Assembly: GCA_027682585.1 (NCBI GenBank) | Contig: JAQCZH010000006.1 | Coordinates: forward strand, 1 to 20,938 | Direction of reading: 5' to 3' | DNA from: Lachnospiraceae bacterium AF51-6-b8A | GTDB taxonomy: Bacteria > Bacillota > Clostridia > Lachnospirales > Lachnospiraceae | DNA: 20,938 bases | Shown: piece after piece, positions 11,682 to 20,938 of the stretch | Position numbering within the stretch: the stretch's first letter is position 1 | Layout of the letters: every line of letters starts with the position of its first letter | Translations under genes and position numbers: made by a program | Notes under the pieces: model-generated | Told to the model about the DNA's origin: nothing | The model's database searches: none | Seen by the model: the letters and a program-made list of their open reading frames with translations, nothing else

Positions 11682-11845
11682 GTGCAGGAGCCGCCCCCGG
11701 CAGGTGGCGTTGATATTTGGGTCCCGAGCAATGAGAGCCTACGAACCGTGTCAGGTCAGGAATGAAGCAGCACTAAGTGGGAATTCCCGTGTGCCTCGGG
11801 GGTGCCTGGATTGAGTTAACCACCGGGGTAACGTCCTGCGTTTTT
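11682..11845 (+). ncRNA. ffs: Signal recognition particle RNA
   Basis: The Ffh-binding core is recognisable at about 11752-11775: TCAGGTCAGGAATGAAGCAG carries the conserved asymmetric and symmetric loop bases of bacterial SRP RNA. The flanking helix pairs CCCGAG with CTCGGG. A longer basal helix pairs CCCCGG (11695-11700) with CCGGGG (11823-11828), and the ends close by GCAGGA (11684-11689) with TCCTGC (11834-11839), directly followed by five T that serve as terminator. At about 160 bases it is longer than the roughly 100-base small form and shorter than the roughly 270-base Bacillus form. I cannot identify an Alu domain with confidence. The exact ends are inferred. Confidence 0.9.
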
Positions 11846-11914
11846 GTATGATTTAGGGACTTCCAAAGAGGAAAACAGTTCGATCAGACAGGGCGGGAAA
11901 CCGCTTAAGAAAGG

Positions 11915-11955
11915 AAAGGGAGATAGCGATTGGCGATGTCAGCTATCTCCCTTTT
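11915..11955 (+). terminator. Intrinsic terminator between the SRP RNA and the coiled-coil gene
   Basis: AAAGGGAGATAGC (11915-11927) and its exact reverse complement (11942-11954) form a 13-bp stem with a 14-base loop ending in four T. A GCGG-GAAA-CCGC mini hairpin precedes it (11893-11904). It would stop read-through from the SRP RNA. Two TATGAT boxes just after it (11955-11960 and 11960-11965) may be -10 elements for the next gene, with no clear -35. Confidence 0.75.
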
Positions 11956-12002
11956 ATGATATGATTAGAGCCGTAACAGATAGGTTTATTCAGGAGATTT
12001 TT

Positions 12003-13070
12003 ATGGGCGCGAAAGATGACAGCGAGAAGATACTGCGCGAAATTCACGTGCTCTTCGCAAAAGCAGAACCATATGAGGGCAGCAGGGACCGGGTTGTGGT
12101 CGATAAGAAGCAGATATTTGACCTTTTGGATCAATTAAATGACGCGACAAACAGCATGGTAGATGAGTGCGAATTGACTTGGGCCGAGCGGGACAAGGCA
12201 TACCGCAGACAGAAACGTCAGGGAGATGAGATTGTCTCAGAGGCCCGGCACAAGGCAGAGGATGTCTATGCGGCTTCTGTGATGTATACGGATCGGTCTC
12301 TGGAAGAAATTCAGGATCTGGTCAGCAGAACCTGTGAGGAACTGGATGAGATTCACCGGAAGATGAAGGAGGCGGTCGGAGCCGAACTTCGCCATATGAG
12401 AGACAATCAGACGGAACTGCACGGACAGCTGAGGGATATGGCGGACAGCCAGAAGTACCTGCATCTGATTGAGGATGAGAATCGGCGGGTCGCCAGGGAA
12501 AAGGAGAAGGCAAGGGAGGCTGATGGGGGTGGTACATTTACCCCTCTCTCCTATGCAGGAGCGGTTCCGGAGATTCGTGTGAATCCGGCGTATTTTGAGA
12601 GGCGAGCACAGATGATGGCCGCGGAGGATAAGAGAACAGAAGAGGGAAGCGCAGATCGAGAAGCTGAAGGCGAAGAGATCAGAGGAACGGCTGCGGACGA
12701 GCCGCCTGAAAATAAGATCAGAGGAGAGAATGCCGTGGATCGGGAAGCTGAAGCCAGGATGATCAGAGAAGATGTGTTAGATGCGTCATCGAAGCGCGAG
12801 GCTGGAGAAGAAGACACGGTAGCTCAGGGGTCTGAAAGTAAAATAAGAGATACAGGCACCGCAAACAATTGGGCAGGGAGTGCTTCCAAAGAAAAAGCAG
12901 CTGTATCCAGGATATGTGATAGTAATGCCGAAAAAGAGACGTCCGGGAACTCGGCTGCGGATGCGGCGCTGTCGGATCTTGGCTGGGAGACACGCGGGGA
13001 TCAGATCAACCGGCAGGAGAACCGGGTAGACAAGGTCCTGCAGATCTTTCGCAAGTCCGGGAATTCTTGA
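12003..13070 (+). CDS. Coiled-coil protein of unknown function (DivIVA / ATPase-stalk-like)
   Basis: A 355-residue soluble protein that I do not recognise beyond its architecture. An N-terminal helical part (about 1-55, with KKQIFDLLDQLNDA) precedes a long coiled coil (about 60-175) rich in Glu, Arg, Lys and Gln. That coiled coil recalls DivIVA or V-ATPase subunit H-like proteins. A conserved-looking segment, FTPLSYAGAVPEIRVNPAYF (about 179-198), follows. The rest is an acidic, low-complexity tail with two imperfect DREAE...IR repeats, ending in a short helix DKVLQIFRKSG. The frame is open 53 codons upstream, but the ATG at 12003 follows AGGAG by six bases and lies past a terminator. Septal or membrane scaffolding is a guess. 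Confidence 0.7.
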   Translation: MGAKDDSEKILREIHVLFAKAEPYEGSRDRVVVDKKQIFDLLDQLNDATNSMVDECELTWAERDKAYRRQKRQGDEIVSEARHKAEDVYAASVMYTDRSLEEIQDLVSRTCEELDEIHRKMKEAVGAELRHMRDNQTELHGQLRDMADSQKYLHLIEDENRRVAREKEKAREADGGGTFTPLSYAGAVPEIRVNPAYFERRAQMMAAEDKRTEEGSADREAEGEEIRGTAADEPPENKIRGENAVDREAEARMIREDVLDASSKREAGEEDTVAQGSESKIRDTGTANNWAGSASKEKAAVSRICDSNAEKETSGNSAADAALSDLGWETRGDQINRQENRVDKVLQIFRKSGNS

Positions 13071-13095
13071 ATTGATCGGGATCATTTCTTATAAT
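13067..13095 (+). promoter_or_regulatory. Promoter of the hydratase gene
   Basis: TTGAAT (13067-13072) contains the stop codon of the coiled-coil gene. After a 17-bp spacer comes a consensus TATAAT (13090-13095). The leader of about 80 bases contains a GTCCCC/GGGGAC hairpin (13151-13156 with 13162-13167) that ends 17 bases before the start codon. Confidence 0.65.
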
Positions 13096-13184
13096 TCACC
13101 CTGACCCAGGGCTTTGCAGAAGCCGCTGACAGTTCTTTTGAAGCGTTTTTGTCCCCTGCCCGGGGACTGGATTTGGGGGCAGAC

Positions 13185-15476
13185 ATGAAGTTATTTGAGA
13201 CAGGTGTTTATCTTCTGAACGGCAGCAAGATGATTGCCGATGGACCACAGGCAGATGCGGCTCTCGCAGCATCCTGCGGCAGAAAAATTGATCGTGAAGA
13301 GGCCAGGAAGCAGACGATTGCCTATGGAATTCTGCACGATCACAACTGTTCCGACAACATGGAACATCTCAAGCTTAAATTTGACAAGATGACTTCCCAC
13401 GATATTACCTATGTGGGGATTATTCAGACTGCCAGAGCTTCCGGCCTGGAGGAATTTCCTATTCCTTACGTCCTGACCAACTGTCATAACAGTCTTTGCG
13501 CTGTTGGCGGAACGATCAATGAAGATGATCACATGTTTGGACTGTCTGCCGCGAGGAAGTACGGAGGCATTTACGTGCCTCCTCATCAGGCTGTCATTCA
13601 CCAGTTCGCCAGAGAAATGCTGGCTGAGTCGGGAAAGATGATTCTGGGAAGTGATTCGCATACCCGCTATGGCGCACTTGGAACCATGGCAATGGGAGAG
13701 GGCGGTCCCGAACTGGTCAAGCAGCTGCTGGGAAGAACCTACGATATTGATCTGCCTCAGGTGGTGGGCGTCTATATGACAGGAAAACCGGCCAAAGGGG
13801 TGGGACCGCAGGATATCGCTCTGGCCATCATCAGACAGGTTTTTGACTGTGGTTATGTCAAGAACAAGGTGATGGAGTTCGTGGGGCCTGGTCTGTCCAA
13901 TCTATCTGTTGATTACCGCATTGGAATTGATGTTATGACAACAGAGACCACCTGTTTGTCTTCCATCTGGGCCACGGATGAGAAGACAGAAGAATTCTAT
14001 GAGATTCATGGACGAAAAGATGCCTACAAGAAGCTGACACCTGGTCAGGTGGCCTATTACGACGGCATGATCGAGATCGATTTGTCTCAGATCAAGCCTA
14101 TGATCGCTATGCCCTTCCATCCCAGTTATGCTTATGCGATTGAAGAAGTGAATGCCAATCTTGAGGACATCCTGGATCAGGTAGCCAGGCGGGCGCAGAT
14201 CTCTCTGGGAGACAGAATTTCATATTCACTGAGGGATAAGATTCGGAATGGTCGCCTCTATGTGGATCAGGGGATCATCGCAGGATGCGCCGGCGGCGGC
14301 TATGAGAACATTACGGATGCGGCGGATATTCTCCGTGGGGCCAACATCGGACCGGACGAATTCAGTCTCAGTGTGTATCCGGCTTCTATGCCAGTCTATA
14401 TGCAGTTGATTAAGAATGGGGCAGCTGCGTCTTTTATCGCAGCGGGCGCTGTCTTCAAGACCGCTTTCTGCGGTCCCTGCTTCGGTGCGGGGGATACCCC
14501 GGCCAATCATGGTTTCTCGATTCGTCACTCTACCCGCAACTTTCCCAATCGTGAGGGATCCAAGATCCAGGAGGGGCAGATCTCATCGGTTGCGCTCATG
14601 GATGCCAGATCTATCGCGGCAACCGCGGCTAACAGGGGATTCTTGACGGCGGCTACCGATATTGACGTAGATTTCACTAAGCCCAGGTATTTCTTTGACC
14701 GAAGCATTTATCAGAACAGAGTTTTTGACGCTGAGGGGAAAGCGGACCCTGAGGCTGAGCTTAAATTCGGTCCCAATATTAAGGACTGGCCCAGGATGAG
14801 TCCGCTGCCGGAGAACCTGATTCTCAAAGTGGTATCTGAGATCCATGACCCGGTGACCACGACGGATGAACTCATCCCCTCAGGAGAGACATCTTCCTAT
14901 CGGTCTAATCCTCTTAAGCTGGCTGAGTTCGCTCTTTCCCGCAGAGATCCGGCATATGTTGGCCGCGCCAAAGAGGTGCAGAAGGCGCAGGCGGCGATTG
15001 AGGCGGATTCCTGTCCCGGGGAGGCGCTTGAGGAATTTCATGAGATTATGCAGGCGATTAAGGAGGAATTTCCTGAGATCAATCGCCATGTGATCGGGGT
15101 CGGCAGTACGATCTTTGCGGTTAAGCCGGGGGACGGCAGTGCCAGAGAACAGGCGGCCTCTTGTCAGAAGGTTCTGGGAGGCTGGGCTAATATCGCCAAC
15201 GAGTACGCTACCAAGCGATATCGGTCCAATCTGATTAACTGGGGGATGATTCCCTTCACCATTCCGGCGGGGGATCTGCCCTTCAAGAATTTGGATTATA
15301 TCTTCGTTCCAAAAGTGCGCGAGGCGGTTAAAGCCGGGAAGGACAGGATGGAGGCCTATGCCGTTCACGAGGGACAGCTGATCCCGTTCAGTCTATATGT
15401 GGACGCAATGACGGAGGATGAGCGGGAGATTATCCTGGACGGATGTCTGATCAACTACTACAGAGCACACAAGTAA
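13185..15476 (+). CDS. Aconitase-family hydratase (YbhJ-like)
   Basis: An iron-sulfur hydro-lyase of 763 residues related to aconitase, with no assigned substrate. The three cluster ligands can be placed: Cys368 in GCAGGG, and Cys429 and Cys432 in CGPC, with spacing close to that of mitochondrial aconitase. Substrate-contact motifs persist: [11 protein letters not shown] near 156, an Arg pair in [11 protein letters not shown], and SAREQA in the C-terminal swivel domain, which ends in LINWGMIPF. The usual GSCTNS around the first cluster Cys is changed to GCAGGG, and this, together with similarity to E. coli YbhJ, argues against true aconitase. ATG 13185 follows a G-rich stretch rather than a clean AGGAG. 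Upstream TTG 13149 is less likely. No citrate-cycle genes are nearby. Confidence 0.88.
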
Positions 15477-15490
15477 TATTTTCCTGATCA

Positions 15491-15523
15491 GCCGGTCGAA
15501 AACGACCGGCCAGCGGTGTTTTT
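15491..15523 (+). terminator. Probable terminator after the hydratase
   Basis: GCCGGTCG (15491-15498) and CGACCGGC (15503-15510) form a perfect 8-bp stem around AAAA. Five T follow at 15519-15523, eight bases from the stem, which is rather far. Read-through into the next gene 31 bases downstream is possible. Confidence 0.6.
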
Positions 15524-15554
15524 AGGGAAAAGAAGCAATTGAGAGGAAAATGCT

Positions 15555-18500
15555 GTGGATAGATATGAGTACAAGGAACTGATTGATCGCGTGCGCGGCT
15601 TGATCGATCACAGGGAAATGGAGGAAGCGGTTCGTCGGCTGGATGGAACTAACTGGCGCAAGGTGCCAAGCGTCAATGCGCTGATGAAGGCAGCGGAACT
15701 GTATGAGGAGGCCGGACGACTGGACAGCGCCAAAGAACTCCTGATGGCGGCGCACGAAAGAAGCCCCATCGGCCGGATGGTGATATATCGCCTGGCTCTG
15801 GTCTGCATTCGCTTACAGGAACTTGATGAGGCTCAGGAGTATTATACGGAATTCATGGAGATTGCCCCCCATGACAGCCTGCGCTATGTGATCAACTACC
15901 AGCTTTCCCGCGCCAGGGGCGTCAGCGATGAAGAGCTGATTACCATTCTTGAGGATTTGAAAGAGAATGATTTCTTGGAGGATTGGGCTTTAGAACTGGC
16001 TCTTTTCTACCAGAAGACCAGGCAAATTGACAAGTGTGTTGACCTCTGCAATGAAATAATCCTCTGGTTTGGCGATGGTCCCTATGTAGAGAAGGCCCTG
16101 GAACTGAAGATGATCTATGCGCCTCTGGATCCGGATCAGGAGCAGACTTATCTGAAGCTTCGTCAGAAGCGCAGAGATGAGATCAAGGAGATTTCCGATC
16201 AGACGGCGGAAGCATCCGGGAAGAAGGAGGTATCGGCAGAGACCATGCCTCTTCCAGAAATTCATATTCCGTCAGCCAAGTTCAATACCGTCAATCTGCA
16301 GGAGAAGATTAAGAAGAATATTGAAGAGATCATGAGCGCTACGGGGCCGGATCAGGTGCAGGAAAAGATGGAGAATATCAAGGAACTGACGGATGAGCTC
16401 CCCTTCCTGCGTGTCTCCGAGGGAACCAGGGAACTGGGTCTCCGTAGGGCCAGGGAGACGCAGAAGATCATTGACCAGGACTTGCGTGAGCGCTATAAGG
16501 GCTTGGGAATTGATGATGACGGACAGATCTCTATGGACGTTCCGGAGCAGTCAGAGAATGATATACAGATCGAGGGGCAGCTCTCGATTGACGACCTGGT
16601 GAAAGACTGGGAGAAGACGCGCAGAGAGGCAGAGGATGTTCTGAAGAAGGCGGGCGAGAAGAAGCTGGAGTCAACTAAGGCACAGGCTTTGGTTGAGGCC
16701 AACGAAATCATGGAGCGCCTGACCGGGGTTCTGCCCCGCCTGGAGGCCGGAGCTTCTGTAGAAGATCTTGTCGAGGAAGAGATGCTGCATCATGCGTCTG
16801 TCAGACTCTCAGAGGCGGCGGGCGCCGCCTCCGAGGATTCTTCAGAGGTAGATTACCGAGAGGCCCGCAGGACGGTTTCTGACATCAACAGTATGCTGCA
16901 GCGTGAGATTGATCGTCTGAACGGCGGGGAGGAAGAGGCGATTCTTACCGGGAAAGAGGAGTCTTCCGCAGAGATACAGGATCAGGATTCTGCCATCAAA
17001 GAGGAAACGGAGAGCGCTGACGCACAGGAGAGGAAAGAGGACATTGATCCAGAGGCTGCGGAGCAAAGTATCACAGATTCGGGGGATCAAGAGACGGCTG
17101 CCGCAGAGATGAAAGATGAAGCTTCTGCGGGGACTGAAGATGAAAGTGCAGAAATGACAGAAACCGCGGATCAAAATTCTGCGGATGAGGAGCAGGAAAG
17201 TCAACTTGTGCCGGCAGATGAAGCAAACGCAGAAGAGACAGCGGAAGGGGAAGAGGACAGTCCTTTGGAGGGGAGCGCTCCGGAGATGACGGCATCGGAA
17301 GAGGACGATGATCCGCTGATTATACCGGAGTTTGATTTCCATGAGGGCGCGGGGGAAGATGAGACAACAGCCGAGACGACAGCATCCGAAGAACCTGAGA
17401 TAGAGGAGTCTGGGGAGGCCATGAAAGAGGATGCCTCAGCGCAACCGCTTCTGAAAGGCAATATTTCTTCCCGGTTCGGAGATGAGGAATTTGTAATCGA
17501 GGAGGAGGACGAGGAAGCGGCAGCGGAAGATATGAGCGCCGAAGAAGAGCCGGTGGCAGCAGAGCAGACGGAAATGGCTGCGAAAGAGGTTGTAAAAGAG
17601 GATTCGATCGAATCGGAGCGCATGAAAGAAGATGAGGAAAAACCCAGGCGTGACGCGATCGAAGAAGCCTTCCATATGCAGGCGACCCGCGCGTCATGGG
17701 TGACAGATGACCAGGAGTTCAACTCAGTTGAAACGATGCAGGCGTCCAATGTCTTCTATAATAACGACACGGCAGAGCCAGGGGCTGCAGAGGCTCCAAG
17801 AAAGCTGACAGATGAGGAGAAAGAACGCTTTTCTTCTTATGTCGCGATTGAGGGAATGGAGGCTCATCTGAGCCGGGCTCTGGAAGGGGTCAAGAGGGGC
17901 TTGCTCGATGGCGGCAAGAAAGCGCATCTGAAAATTATTGGTTCTGAGGGTTCCGGCAAGACCAATCTGGCAACTGGGGTTATTGAACTGATGCAGAGGC
18001 AGATCAAACTCCCCGGCGGCCCGGCAGGGAAGATTGATGCGGACAGGTTAAATGAGAAAAATGTCATTGATCTCTTTGATAAGATTCGTGGAGGCGCGCT
18101 GATCATAGAGAAGGCGGGGGCTCTTTCCAGAGTATCTGTCGCGACACTCAATACGCTTTTAGATACGGATACGAGCGGAACGCTTATGATTCTCGAAGAT
18201 GATGTGGAGTCCCTGCAGAAAATGTTCGCGATGAACCGCTCCTTTGCGTCCAAGTTCGTGAATGAGATCAGGATTCCTGTCTTCACTACAGATGAGCTGG
18301 TTGCTTTCGGACGGTCATATGCCAATGACAATGGGTGCAGTGTGGATTCCATGGGAGTTCTGGCCCTCTACAACCGCATCAATATGATTCAGAAGATTGA
18401 CCAGCCTACATCTTTAAGCGAAGTGATTGAGATTGTGGACCAGGCGATGGCCAGGGTCAAGTCAGGTGGTCTCAAGAAGAAGTTCTCCCGTCTGGGGAGC

Positions 18501-18557
18501 AAGAGAAGCGATGCACAGGGCCGTTTGATTCTCCACGAGAAAGATTTTGAGGCTTGA
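15555..18557 (+). CDS. TPR / acidic linker / degenerate SpoVK-CbbX-like AAA+ protein
   Basis: A cytoplasmic protein of 1000 residues with no signal or membrane segment. The N-terminal 200 or so residues form helical TPR-like repeats (for example ALMKAAELYEEAGRLDSAKE). Residues about 200-455 are helical and charged. Residues about 456-695 are a strongly acidic, probably disordered linker. The C-terminal AAA+ domain resembles the SpoVK/CbbX group. Walker A is intact, GSEGSGKT (796-803). At Walker B the expected IDEA reads IEKA (851-854), the sensor-1 AGY position reads EDD (881-883), and the arginine-finger SRF reads SKF (899-901). Nucleotide binding is therefore likely but hydrolysis doubtful. 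The start is GTG 15555 after AGAGGA. It overlaps the next gene by one base. Confidence 0.8.
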   Translation: MDRYEYKELIDRVRGLIDHREMEEAVRRLDGTNWRKVPSVNALMKAAELYEEAGRLDSAKELLMAAHERSPIGRMVIYRLALVCIRLQELDEAQEYYTEFMEIAPHDSLRYVINYQLSRARGVSDEELITILEDLKENDFLEDWALELALFYQKTRQIDKCVDLCNEIILWFGDGPYVEKALELKMIYAPLDPDQEQTYLKLRQKRRDEIKEISDQTAEASGKKEVSAETMPLPEIHIPSAKFNTVNLQEKIKKNIEEIMSATGPDQVQEKMENIKELTDELPFLRVSEGTRELGLRRARETQKIIDQDLRERYKGLGIDDDGQISMDVPEQSENDIQIEGQLSIDDLVKDWEKTRREAEDVLKKAGEKKLESTKAQALVEANEIMERLTGVLPRLEAGASVEDLVEEEMLHHASVRLSEAAGAASEDSSEVDYREARRTVSDINSMLQREIDRLNGGEEEAILTGKEESSAEIQDQDSAIKEETESADAQERKEDIDPEAAEQSITDSGDQETAAAEMKDEASAGTEDESAEMTETADQNSADEEQESQLVPADEANAEETAEGEEDSPLEGSAPEMTASEEDDDPLIIPEFDFHEGAGEDETTAETTASEEPEIEESGEAMKEDASAQPLLKGNISSRFGDEEFVIEEEDEEAAAEDMSAEEEPVAAEQTEMAAKEVVKEDSIESERMKEDEEKPRRDAIEEAFHMQATRASWVTDDQEFNSVETMQASNVFYNNDTAEPGAAEAPRKLTDEEKERFSSYVAIEGMEAHLSRALEGVKRGLLDGGKKAHLKIIGSEGSGKTNLATGVIELMQRQIKLPGGPAGKIDADRLNEKNVIDLFDKIRGGALIIEKAGALSRVSVATLNTLLDTDTSGTLMILEDDVESLQKMFAMNRSFASKFVNEIRIPVFTTDELVAFGRSYANDNGCSVDSMGVLALYNRINMIQKIDQPTSLSEVIEIVDQAMARVKSGGLKKKFSRLGSKRSDAQGRLILHEKDFEA

Positions 18558-19750
18558 TGGACAGAGTGATGGATTTATTGAAGGAAATCGGTTGGTCCTT
18601 GAGGGAACTCTTCTTGCGCCTTTGGACTTTGGTCCGAAGGCACGGGAGGCTCTTTCTTTTCATTGTTCTGGCCCTGGTGCTGATATTTCTTTTCTTTTTT
18701 GTACAGGGAAGGCGCCAATACCGGAATTACAGTGTGATTTCCAGCAAGAAACTGGACGATGCCAGTGGAACCAGGTACACGCTCTTTCAAAATAATGTTC
18801 TGGCCTATAATACGGACGGGAGTATCTATACAAGCACGGCTGGCAGTCTGCTTTGGAGTCAGTCCTATCAGATGAGCTCACCCCATTTAGATTCGGGTGA
18901 TGCTTATGCCGTGATTTATGATCGGGGAGGAACAGGCATTTACCTCTTCTCAAAAGAGGGAAGTCGAGCTCACATCACGACCAATCTGCCAGTCGCAGAG
19001 GCTAAGGTCGCGGATAATGGCTCCGTGGCGGTTCTCATGCAGAACGACAAGGTCGGTTATCTGCATCTCTATAATGCGGATGGAAATCTGACGGCCAGCG
19101 GGGAGGTACATCTTGAGACGACAGGCTATCCCGTGTCCATTGCCATTTCGCAGGACGGGCAGCGCCTGGCGGTGGCTCTTGCAGATGTGAGTGAGGGCAA
19201 GGTTCATTCCAAGCTGCAGATTTACGATTTTGGCGCCGCAGGTAAAAACGCTGACAAGCATATTGTTGCAAGTTTCGATTATGAAGATAGCCTGATAGGA
19301 GAGATCGCGTACGTCAAAGGCGGGAATTTGGCGGTCTATACAGACAAGAAGATTCTGCTGTATCACAACCGCACGAAGCCCGGTCTTCTCAATGAAGTAC
19401 CCGTTGAGGGGCAGATCCGCAGCGTTTATTATAATCAGAATTATTTTGGGTATATCGGGAGCAGCGGTAATGCGTCCGGTCAGAATACGGTTCGTCTGTA
19501 TACATTTAATAATCGAGGGCGCCGTGTAACCAACGCTCAGATCGACATGAGCTATAGCAGAGTTGAAATTCTTGCGAATAACGAAATCGCTCTCTACGGA
19601 GATAAGAGGCTGGAGATTTATAATCTGGCTGGTACATGCAAGTTTACTGGAGATCTTAAGAGCGTCGTGAGTGCGGTGATTCCGGGGAGCGGGACCAGAG
19701 ACTATCTCTTTGTTCGAGAGGGATCACTGGATCGTGCCAAGTTAAAATAA
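18557..19750 (+). CDS. Membrane-anchored beta-propeller-like protein (DUF5711-like)
   Basis: A 397-residue protein with a short amphipathic, basic cytoplasmic N-terminus, one membrane helix at about 32-49 (FLFIVLALVLIFLFFFV) and a large external domain. That domain has repeated strand patterns such as NVLAYNTDGSIY, KVGYLHLYNADGNL, KILLYHNR and EIALYGDKRLEIYNLAG, which suggest a WD40/PQQ-like beta propeller. I believe it matches DUF5711, from memory. The lack of a cleavage site implies an N-in, C-out anchor. ATG 18557 shares its A with the TGA stop of the AAA+ gene (TTG 18554 is the alternative). This tight coupling implies joint action with that protein, and perhaps the propeller is its outer sensor. 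Confidence 0.75.
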   Translation: MDRVMDLLKEIGWSLRELFLRLWTLVRRHGRLFLFIVLALVLIFLFFFVQGRRQYRNYSVISSKKLDDASGTRYTLFQNNVLAYNTDGSIYTSTAGSLLWSQSYQMSSPHLDSGDAYAVIYDRGGTGIYLFSKEGSRAHITTNLPVAEAKVADNGSVAVLMQNDKVGYLHLYNADGNLTASGEVHLETTGYPVSIAISQDGQRLAVALADVSEGKVHSKLQIYDFGAAGKNADKHIVASFDYEDSLIGEIAYVKGGNLAVYTDKKILLYHNRTKPGLLNEVPVEGQIRSVYYNQNYFGYIGSSGNASGQNTVRLYTFNNRGRRVTNAQIDMSYSRVEILANNEIALYGDKRLEIYNLAGTCKFTGDLKSVVSAVIPGSGTRDYLFVREGSLDRAKLK

Positions 19751-19772
19751 GACAATGGGGAGAGGAGAGAAC

Positions 19773-20609
19773 TTGAACACTGCACTGCTAATCTTTGGAC
19801 TGATCATTCTTAGCGCCGTGATCAGAGGTCTGCAAAAGGGTGCTTTGAAAATGCTCTTCGGCCTGGTTTCTTGGATTTTTGTCCTGATCTTTGTTCTGGT
19901 CGCAACGCCGGGGATCGATCAGCTGCTGAGAGAGTACACGCCTTTGGATAATGTGATTCAGGAACAGGTCACAAGGCAGACGCAGGCATACTGGGAGAAA
20001 CAGAAGGCCAGAGCGACCAACCAGGTCGTAAGCGACTTAAAGAAGAAGATAGGCGATCAGGGCTTCCCGCTGGCAGAACTTGGGAAGAGCATTTCGGCCG
20101 ACACGCAGATTCCCCTGAATCTCTTGCAGACCTATCTGGATCAGCATGCGGAGCAGATATATGCCAAATTACCGGCTCTGCTGCGCGAGGCCTATGAGAA
20201 GGGGCAGCTGCGAGTTCAGGTTGCTGCGGATCAAACGACCGGAAATATCAGAGACGCTGTAGATCAGGTGGGGCAAAGCCTTGCGGATCAGGCGGCGGTT
20301 GCGATTACCGGATGGATCATGAGGGCGATTTACCTTCTTCTGGCGCTAGTGATTGCTCGGATCGTGACAGCTGTTGTTGCGGCAGTGATTGATACGGCCA
20401 GTCATGCGCCGGTGATCGGCGGCCTCAGCCGCGCCCTTGGGGGCCTGATGGGGCTTGGTATCGGTCTGATTGACAGCTGGTTCCTTATGTATCTGGTTGA
20501 AATTCTCTCCTGGACTTCCCTGGGGGCTTATTGGGCGGAACAAATCGGGGCGAGCGCTATCCTGAAACTGATCAGCGGATATAATCCTCTGTCCTTGCTT
20601 TTTCGTTGA
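19773..20609 (+). CDS. CvpA-family membrane protein with a long extramembrane insert
   Basis: A 278-residue membrane protein related to CvpA, the colicin V production / integral membrane family. Two N-terminal hydrophobic helices (about 3-20 and 27-44) contain the family's IRGLQKGALKMLFGL motif. A charged helical insert follows at about 55-165 with no hydrophobic stretch. The C-terminal half has further membrane helices and the glycine-rich GGLSRALGGLMGLGIGL motif typical of CvpA. Typical CvpA proteins are about 165-220 residues, so the insert is extra. GGGAGAGGAGAG lies ahead of TTG 19773, which I take as the start. ATG 19755 would read through that ribosome binding site and has none of its own. 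It follows the propeller gene by 22 bases. Confidence 0.78.
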   Translation: MNTALLIFGLIILSAVIRGLQKGALKMLFGLVSWIFVLIFVLVATPGIDQLLREYTPLDNVIQEQVTRQTQAYWEKQKARATNQVVSDLKKKIGDQGFPLAELGKSISADTQIPLNLLQTYLDQHAEQIYAKLPALLREAYEKGQLRVQVAADQTTGNIRDAVDQVGQSLADQAAVAITGWIMRAIYLLLALVIARIVTAVVAAVIDTASHAPVIGGLSRALGGLMGLGIGLIDSWFLMYLVEILSWTSLGAYWAEQIGASAILKLISGYNPLSLLFR

Positions 20610-20719
20610 CCACAGAAGATTTGCTCTGCGCATCATATGGTTTTTGAGAGATAAGCGGGAAGATTTAGTGGTTGAAAAAGAGAACGGACACAACATCTCT
20701 GAAAGGAGGGAAATAGAAG

Positions 20720-20753
20720 AAAAGCCCTGAAAATCAGTGTTGACAGGGTTTTT
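20720..20753 (+). terminator. Terminator of the AAA+/propeller/CvpA unit
   Basis: AAAAGCCCTG (20720-20729) pairs with CAGGGTTTTT (20744-20753), one G-T pair, 14-base loop, ending in five T. The right arm overlaps the -35 box and spacer of the following rRNA promoter. The 110 bases between the CvpA stop and this hairpin hold no gene. A strong GAAAGGAGGG at 20701-20710 leads to no start codon. Confidence 0.75.
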
Positions 20754-20768
20754 GCTCTTTGATAATAT
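20740..20768 (+). promoter_or_regulatory. rRNA operon promoter P1
   Basis: TTGACA (20740-20745), a 17-bp spacer and TAATAT (20763-20768). The spacer contains TTGCTCTTTGA, which resembles boxA, though upstream of the start it cannot act as antiterminator RNA for this promoter. Confidence 0.75.
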
Positions 20769-20833
20769 AATGCTTGCACCGTGCGAGTGGCCTTGAGAGA
20801 GCCATATTCAGAGCAGAGTCAATAAATAAGTGA

Positions 20834-20862
20834 TTGACAGGAAGAACTGAATTTGATATTAT
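20834..20862 (+). promoter_or_regulatory. rRNA operon promoter P2
   Basis: TTGACA (20834-20839), a 17-bp spacer and TATTAT (20857-20862), 94 bases after P1. Tandem consensus promoters with equal spacing are the classic arrangement ahead of Firmicutes rRNA operons. Confidence 0.8.
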
Positions 20863-20938
20863 AACCAAGTTGCTACTTACGGCGAACAGCAAGAACCTTG
20901 ATAACTGAACAATGAAACAACCTTGAAAGATTCTAAGA
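20863..20938 (+). other. rRNA operon leader (pre-16S)
   Basis: Downstream of P2 the text AACCTTGATAACTGAACAAT is the type of sequence found in clostridial pre-16S leaders and 16S-23S spacers, part of the boxA and RNase III processing region. No 16S sequence is present before the window ends, so the identification rests on the tandem promoters and this leader motif. Confidence 0.65.

Follow-up and report, generated by a model that had tools for sequence, protein, structure and literature searches.

The question raised by this locus is whether three tightly coupled genes form one conserved system. The genes, here called A, B, and C, lie near the end of a 20,938-nucleotide stretch of Lachnospiraceae bacterium AF51-6-b8A (contig JAQCZH010000006.1, positions 1 to 20,938; the whole stretch is referred to as the window). 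A reading made from the sequence alone, before any database search, had described three co-directional, coupled genes encoding a scaffold with tetratricopeptide repeats (TPRs), an acidic part, and an AAA+ part (A), a beta-propeller anchored by one helix (B), and a CvpA-type membrane protein (C), and had proposed that they make up an envelope-associated complex. The layout and the three protein descriptions were borne out (Table 1). The A stop codon TGA (18555-18557) and the B start codon ATG (18557-18559) have one base in common, and a 22-base gap separates the B stop (19750) from the TTG start of C (19773), although an in-frame ATG for C is also found at 19755. As a conserved unit, however, the three genes did not hold together: A is directly followed by B in just two of the 81 loci compared, the window and one from Shuttleworthella (L001), so that a conserved neighborhood of the three-gene set outside this genome is nearly absent, and the candidate three-gene operon was rejected. 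The closest named relative is Shuttleworthella (Shuttleworthia) satelles, which shares 86% identity in B and 73% in the best segment of A.

The usual neighbors of A became apparent when reference genomes were searched with an alignment of the A family, which gave 353 confirmed relatives, the best 80 of which were used (L001-L080; the A-scan loci). The glycogen-branching gene glgB directly follows A in 76 of the 80; three further loci end too early to contain a full glgB, and L001 is the only one in which B comes next. The run A-glgB-B is present in 46 loci, 45 of which continue into C. Of the 47 A-scan loci that hold B, 46 have C beside it; the exception in both counts is L012, where the locus end falls after B. 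A further 30 loci have A-glgB without B in the fetched locus, three of them with less than 4 kb of room; in the genomes of L051, L072, and L014 (G003, G005, and G006), B and its neighbor C were found outside the stretch fetched around A. By parsimony, given the 46 A-glgB-B loci, the A/B overlap in the window is best read as a local loss of an intervening glgB. In the genome of L001 (G001), only one branching-enzyme match exceeds the cut-off; it is located about 2.4 kb from glgA, at a distance of about 67 kb from A.

The locus is therefore read here as the meeting point of two older pairs, DUF5711-CvpA (B-C) and A-glgB, and not as a three-gene machine, a reading to which, together with the functions proposed below, we give an even chance. 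The envelope complex proposed earlier stands as far as the anchored propeller and its CvpA neighbor are concerned, since that pair is kept, in the same direction, across Clostridia; it does not extend readily to A. Because the usual partner of A is glgB, nothing beyond a one-branch A-glgB-B-C run and a one-genus overlap places A in such a complex. The useful result is this split into a DUF5711-CvpA pair and a pseudo-CbbX-GlgB pair, both of which involve known families. The membrane pair B-C occurs widely but has gone unstudied. The three-gene interpretation does not hold in general, which warns against deriving a function from all three genes together. Among the papers listed in literature searches, judged by title and abstract beginning, none dealt with either pairing.

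The DUF5711-CvpA pair across Clostridia

The B protein matches DUF5711 over profile positions 2-344 of 344. Its structural model (predicted local distance difference test score, 95.7; from a 65-row alignment) has helices at residues 2-29 and 31-52, the second being the membrane helix, followed by 32 strands, which would give eight four-stranded blades. The top Foldseek match was a designed propeller, followed by BamB (E value, 4.7e-11) and YxaL (1.7e-10) at TM scores of about 0.5; identity to the latter two is about 14 per cent, and eukaryotic WD40 propellers score similarly. Profile searches likewise returned designed and PQQ-like propellers and, weakly, NHL propellers. The propeller would sit outside the cell. 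A few B homologues carry long, cytoplasmic-looking N-terminal extensions preceding the anchor. For C (284 residues), CvpA was the only family in Pfam and NCBIfam with a match above a cut-off (PF02674, 43.7 bits against a cut-off of 29.3). Transmembrane-like hydrophobic segments lie near both ends, with about 140 residues between the second and third, and G29, G229, and G233 are invariant in an alignment of 36 sequences.

Since a homologue search with B yielded only 3 proteins among 7,999 scored candidates, its distribution was taken from genome searches. DUF5711 was found in 186 of 196 genomes of the order (two matches in 6 genomes and one in the others) and in 207 of 291 genomes of the class (two matches in 3 and one in the others); a search of plasmids gave no match. 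Two sets of loci were examined, one of 40 order loci (L108-L147) chosen from the 186 positives and one of 39 usable class loci out of 40 fetched (L163-L202), chosen from the 207 positives for room around the gene; some of the class loci may also come from the order. C is the gene immediately after B in 39/40 order loci and 34/39 class loci, mostly at a distance of less than 50 bases. Furthermore, B and C are adjacent in 90 of the 92 Clostridia genomes for which both places are given among the better-scoring matches listed; in the other two, the CvpA match lies on another contig (G208) or 27 kb away (G371). A CvpA match was present in 190/207 B-positive and 53/84 B-negative genomes of the class (Fisher P = 2.8e-8, uncorrected for relatedness). 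When CvpA matches were located in 12 genomes, all lay at the B locus in 11, and G100 had none. The six fetched genomes that have B without a neighboring C (G100, G222, G332, G354, G433, and G446) contain no PF02674 match, and C has thus been lost or become undetectable there rather than moved.

The flanks of the pair, by comparison, vary, and include glgA, YkvI-like, truA-ecfT, DUF4340, and ilvD-like genes. Immediately upstream of B are glgA (11/40) or a YkvI-like gene (13/40) in the order loci and truA (17/39), a YkvI-like gene (9/39), or DUF4340 (3/39) in the class loci; within 3.5 kb, the class loci contain an ecfT-like gene in 18/39 cases and DUF4340 in 12/39. The names glgA, truA, ecfT (a CbiQ-type protein), and DUF4340 come from Pfam matches of one example each, whereas the YkvI, ilvD, and CYTH neighbors are what we take them to be, the YkvI-like example having no Pfam match. 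That B and C are kept together while their flanks are exchanged is good evidence for a shared function, though not for physical contact. A glycogen theme for B-C was considered and rejected: glgA lies less than 3.5 kb upstream of B in 16/40 order loci but in 0/39 class loci. In three class loci (L178, L182, and L183), a presumably CYTH-like gene, judged by eye, takes the place of C after DUF5711, and in L178 genes for a DUF4340 protein and an ATP-binding cassette (ABC) auxiliary protein (Pfam) lie upstream of DUF5711.

Gene A and its glgB neighbor

Searches for gene A covered one order and the reference scan. Its occurrence within the order is patchy, with matches in 21 of 196 genomes at an E value of <1e-40 and in 26 at ≤0.001. 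In a homologue search, 7,937 of 7,983 scored candidates matched at an E value of ≤0.001, some perhaps through their TPRs alone. Pfam places the TPRs at about residues 41-107, and hydropathy gives no transmembrane-like segment. For the C-terminal domain, CbbX is the best match both in structure and by profile (profile match, 3.4e-13), followed by EccA1 (5.7e-11).

Motifs were counted in 94 family members after removal of identical sequences and of C-terminal matches that do not span the domain (e.g., L152, L155, and L156); a single alignment to 7 comparator domains, taken from 4 proteins, underlies the counts, which limits them. The pore loop is missing in all 94 members. The Walker B Asp-Glu is EK in the window. 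The sensor-1 GY, named as a signature of the SpoVK/CbbX/EccA clade in the available text of PMC10659427, is DD in the window, and across the family its Gly is found in 4/94 and its Tyr in 0/94. The sensor-2 Arg (second arginine finger) is absent at the NGR position in every member and present at the next, VRN, position in 8/94. The first arginine finger, an Arg at N+4, occurs in 0/94 members, yet in only 3/7 comparators, whereas an Arg at N+6 is found in 7/7 comparators and 37/94 family members, with the upstream Asn in 29/94. Judged from these sequences, A is probably a family-wide pseudo-ATPase of the CbbX/SpoVK/EccA clade. Since the P-loop Lys is gone in 9/94 members, ATP binding itself may be dispensable in those. 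Three further proteins, in L148, L149, and L151, have at least two AAA plus AAA_lid_6 stretches and are apparently intact members of the CbbX clade; the genomes of L148 and L149 also carry the degenerate gene A.

Beyond the A-scan, 17 mostly more divergent A regions from the order sample had glgB next in 8 cases. In 7 of these 8, a KsgA-like gene (by eye) lies directly upstream, replacing the aconitase/AI-2E genes, and the persistence of glgB beside A despite changed upstream genes lends modest support to a role beside GlgB. In all 12 genomes searched, glgB and glgA both scored above their cut-offs, so the presence of glgB cannot discriminate whether A depends on it. In L204, a 1,489-residue SMC-like ATPase and two smaller genes lie upstream of A, with a resemblance, by eye, to Wadjet-type systems; in L207, L208, L211, L212, and L215, a gene of about 1,000 residues and then a flagellin-like gene (by eye) follow A-glgB.

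Proposed roles and rival explanations

On the directly supported families, modeled folds, conserved adjacencies, and motif losses (the last from one alignment), the following roles may be proposed. B would be held in the membrane by its single N-terminal helix, with a BamB-like eight-bladed propeller outside, and would form one membrane complex with C. The propeller would be the external subunit of this complex, binding a ligand or partner, and CvpA would be its base in the membrane. Such a complex might work in envelope homeostasis or membrane-stress resistance, and because CvpA is needed for deoxycholate resistance (available text of PMC6705877), we lean toward the membrane-stress role. A would be soluble, combining TPRs with an AAA+ domain that derives from a dedicated-chaperone clade but has lost some of its parts for ATP hydrolysis and substrate threading. 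It may act as a nucleotide-sensing scaffold that holds or tunes the GlgB encoded next door. The TPRs and middle region would then bind GlgB or glycogen, and the P-loop domain would signal ATP or ADP. The absence of glgB between A and B in L001 and the window, most simply explained by loss, would have left A overlapping or abutting B. A bolder version, which we consider unlikely, is that DUF5711 is the dedicated extracytoplasmic subunit of CvpA in much of Clostridia, so that CvpA, whose function is obscure, would have a constant partner, and that A, a pseudo-AAA+ of the CbbX activase clade turned adenylate-sensing TPR scaffold for glycogen branching, was recruited to the CvpA complex in Shuttleworthella, coupling carbon storage to the envelope.

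Several observations weigh against reading the locus as two older pairs with these roles. The A/B overlap in the window could mean a real new link. Neither member of B-C strictly needs the other, since CvpA occurs in the absence of DUF5711 in 53 genomes, and a further 17 with DUF5711 show no CvpA match; in G371, moreover, the CvpA match lies 27 kb from B. For A-glgB, glgB is missing from the adjacent position in 9 of the 17 divergent loci (L206 and L219, both among the nine, resemble one arrangement in related genomes), the contrast of contexts is softened by the TatD and KsgA genes that the window itself has about 6 kb upstream of A, and the adjacency could be synteny inherited within part of the order. 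The single alignment behind the motif counts also limits the case for a pseudo-ATPase, and some AAA+ domains with an altered Walker B still hydrolyze ATP.

That A, B, and C nevertheless make up a single complex for sensing or assembly at the envelope, to which A contributes the cytoplasmic nucleotide-binding part, appears very unlikely: the one-base overlap, the 22-base spacing, and the 46 loci with A-glgB-B order (45 with C) speak for it, but A abuts B in only two loci, 30 A-scan loci have A-glgB and no B in the fetched locus, G003, G005, and G006 have B and C outside the fetched A locus, and B occurs in 186 genomes of the order against 26 for A. B and C might instead be a transport or sensing module tied to the upstream uptake genes (YkvI-like, EcfT-type, or DUF4340 with its ABC auxiliary protein), with the propeller as substrate receptor. 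The frequencies of these neighbors given above favor this, whereas no single transporter persists as C does, and truA, glgA, or glgB occupies the same place in other loci, which makes the proposal rather unlikely.

For A, an active or conditionally active EccA-type AAA+ chaperone would agree with the fold, with a TPR-AAA+ order like that of EccA in the available text of PMC10659427, and with a P-loop Lys retained in 85/94 members; with the pore loop, the Walker B Asp, and the sensor-2 Arg missing throughout and the P-loop Lys itself lost in 9 members, we regard such activity as unlikely. It is also improbable that both adjacencies are slowly decaying synteny devoid of functional meaning. All of the loci come from one class, A was sought in one order plus the reference scan, and A-glgB is confined to part of the order, all of which such synteny would fit; B-C, however, outlasts the exchange of its flanks over the class, and A-glgB outlasts the change of its directly upstream genes. 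CvpA is widespread, and we know of no settled mechanism for it; a conserved propeller partner, in genomes where C was the only CvpA found in 11 of 12 checked, makes its role testable in Clostridia, and CvpA matters for bile-salt resistance in enteric bacteria (available text of PMC6705877). With a family-wide degenerate member of the activase clade beside glgB, the range of dedicated chaperones or scaffolds would come to include carbohydrate storage.

Locus features and comparison with known systems

Table 1. Features of the three-gene locus, with positions in the window
Feature	Position	Strand	Basis or remarks
Hairpin followed by T run, between the aconitase-like gene and gene A	15491-15523	+	Stretch 15474-15556: z -3.76, 0/200 shuffles as good
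Gene A	15555-18557	+	1,000 residues, GTG start; TPR, acidic linker, degenerate CbbX-type AAA+; TPR Pfam matches
Gene A, TPR region (about residues 1-200)	15555-16154	+	Pfam TPR_2, 4.7e-07; profile matches to consensus TPR proteins in the PDB, 7.3e-08
Gene A, conserved middle region (about residues 230-450)	16242-16904	+	Invariant columns in alignment A1
Gene A, variable acidic linker	16905-17795	+	No conservation in alignment A1
Gene A, C-terminal AAA+-like domain, CbbX/SpoVK/EccA type	17796-18551	+	
Gene A, Walker A GSEGSGKT, retained	17940-17963	+	Lys in 85/94 family members
Gene A, degenerate Walker B, LIIEKAG versus LFIDEAY	18099-18119	+	Asp in 0/94; catalytic Glu in 4/94
Gene B (DUF5711)	18557-19750	+	PF18975, E value 7e-106; N-terminal membrane anchor and eight-bladed beta-propeller (model)
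Gene B, transmembrane helix	18650-18706	+	Hydropathy, residues 33-51; model helix, residues 31-52
Gene B, propeller	18728-19744	+	Model; Foldseek matches including BamB (4imm), YxaL (7dxn), and many eukaryotic WD40 propellers
Gene C (CvpA-family membrane protein)	19773-20609	+	PF02674, 3.4e-11; TTG start as in L001; alignment A4
Candidate terminator hairpin with T tail, 3' of C	20720-20753	+	Stretch 20690-20770: z -2.53, 2/200 shuffles as good

The claim that the three genes end in one terminator is less secure. RNA folding against 200 shuffles, used after a consensus terminator scan had listed nothing 3' of C (it found 7 terminators in 13000-20938, where shuffles gave 6.2 on average), gave the candidate hairpin with its T tail, but a promoter-like TTGACA hexamer at 20740 overlaps it. 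Of the three promoter-like matches that score best, two (20740 and 20834) fall in the window end (20740-20938), although the number of such matches is not above chance (8 against 5.8 in shuffles; standard deviation, 2.8). In L001, the 16S gene starts 608 bases 3' of C, and the window stops before that point; the locus probably runs into an rRNA operon. A 16S motif was seen in the fetched stretch of 6/40 order loci.

Upstream, a bacterial large signal recognition particle (SRP) RNA (RF01854; 11681-11842, + strand) lies directly 5' of a coiled-coil open reading frame (11844-13070) that is DivIVA-like by eye, and the same order is found in L001. A single-chain aconitase-like hydratase gene (13149-15476, + strand; NCBIfam NF008503, 1,300 bits) lies upstream of A here and in many relatives, with an AI-2E family transporter gene between the two in L003 (Pfam) and in L030, L051, and L014 (by eye).

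Gene A resembles the SpoVK/CbbX/EccA clade in its C-terminal fold, with CbbX and EccA closest by profile and structure, and it shares the P-loop. It differs in lacking the pore loop, Walker B Asp, sensor-1 Tyr, and sensor-2 Arg (94/94 members each) and the catalytic Glu (90/94) and in having a conserved middle region, an acidic linker, and glgB as its usual neighbor. According to the available text of PMC10659427, a preprint, characterized members of the clade act on a dedicated target, which for SpoVK is the glycosyltransferase MurG, and carbohydrate metabolism is named for the clade in general terms. As in EccA of type VII secretion, N-terminal TPRs precede the CbbX-type AAA+ domain of A; no type VII secretion genes (EccC and others) were recognized by eye among the neighbors of A, the genomes themselves not having been searched for EccC.

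C belongs with Escherichia coli CvpA by its above-cut-off match to the family profile, and CvpA is needed for deoxycholate resistance in enterohemorrhagic E. coli and two Vibrio species (available text of PMC6705877). The window C differs in having a propeller partner gene and an approximately 140-residue stretch that is lacking in the short C homologues of L088, L089, L092, and L094. B shares the eight-bladed fold of BamB and YxaL, as far as the model goes; BamB, however, has an outer-membrane lipoprotein anchor, whereas B has a transmembrane helix at residues 33-51 and no Cys in its first 60 residues. In MarP, a CvpA-like membrane part is fused to an outside serine protease. The combination of a CvpA-like membrane base with an extracytoplasmic domain is what is proposed here for C with B, except that (the NCBIfam MarP match being 10.7 bits, with an E value of 0.19, against a cut-off of 250) the two parts are encoded by two genes and a propeller replaces the protease.

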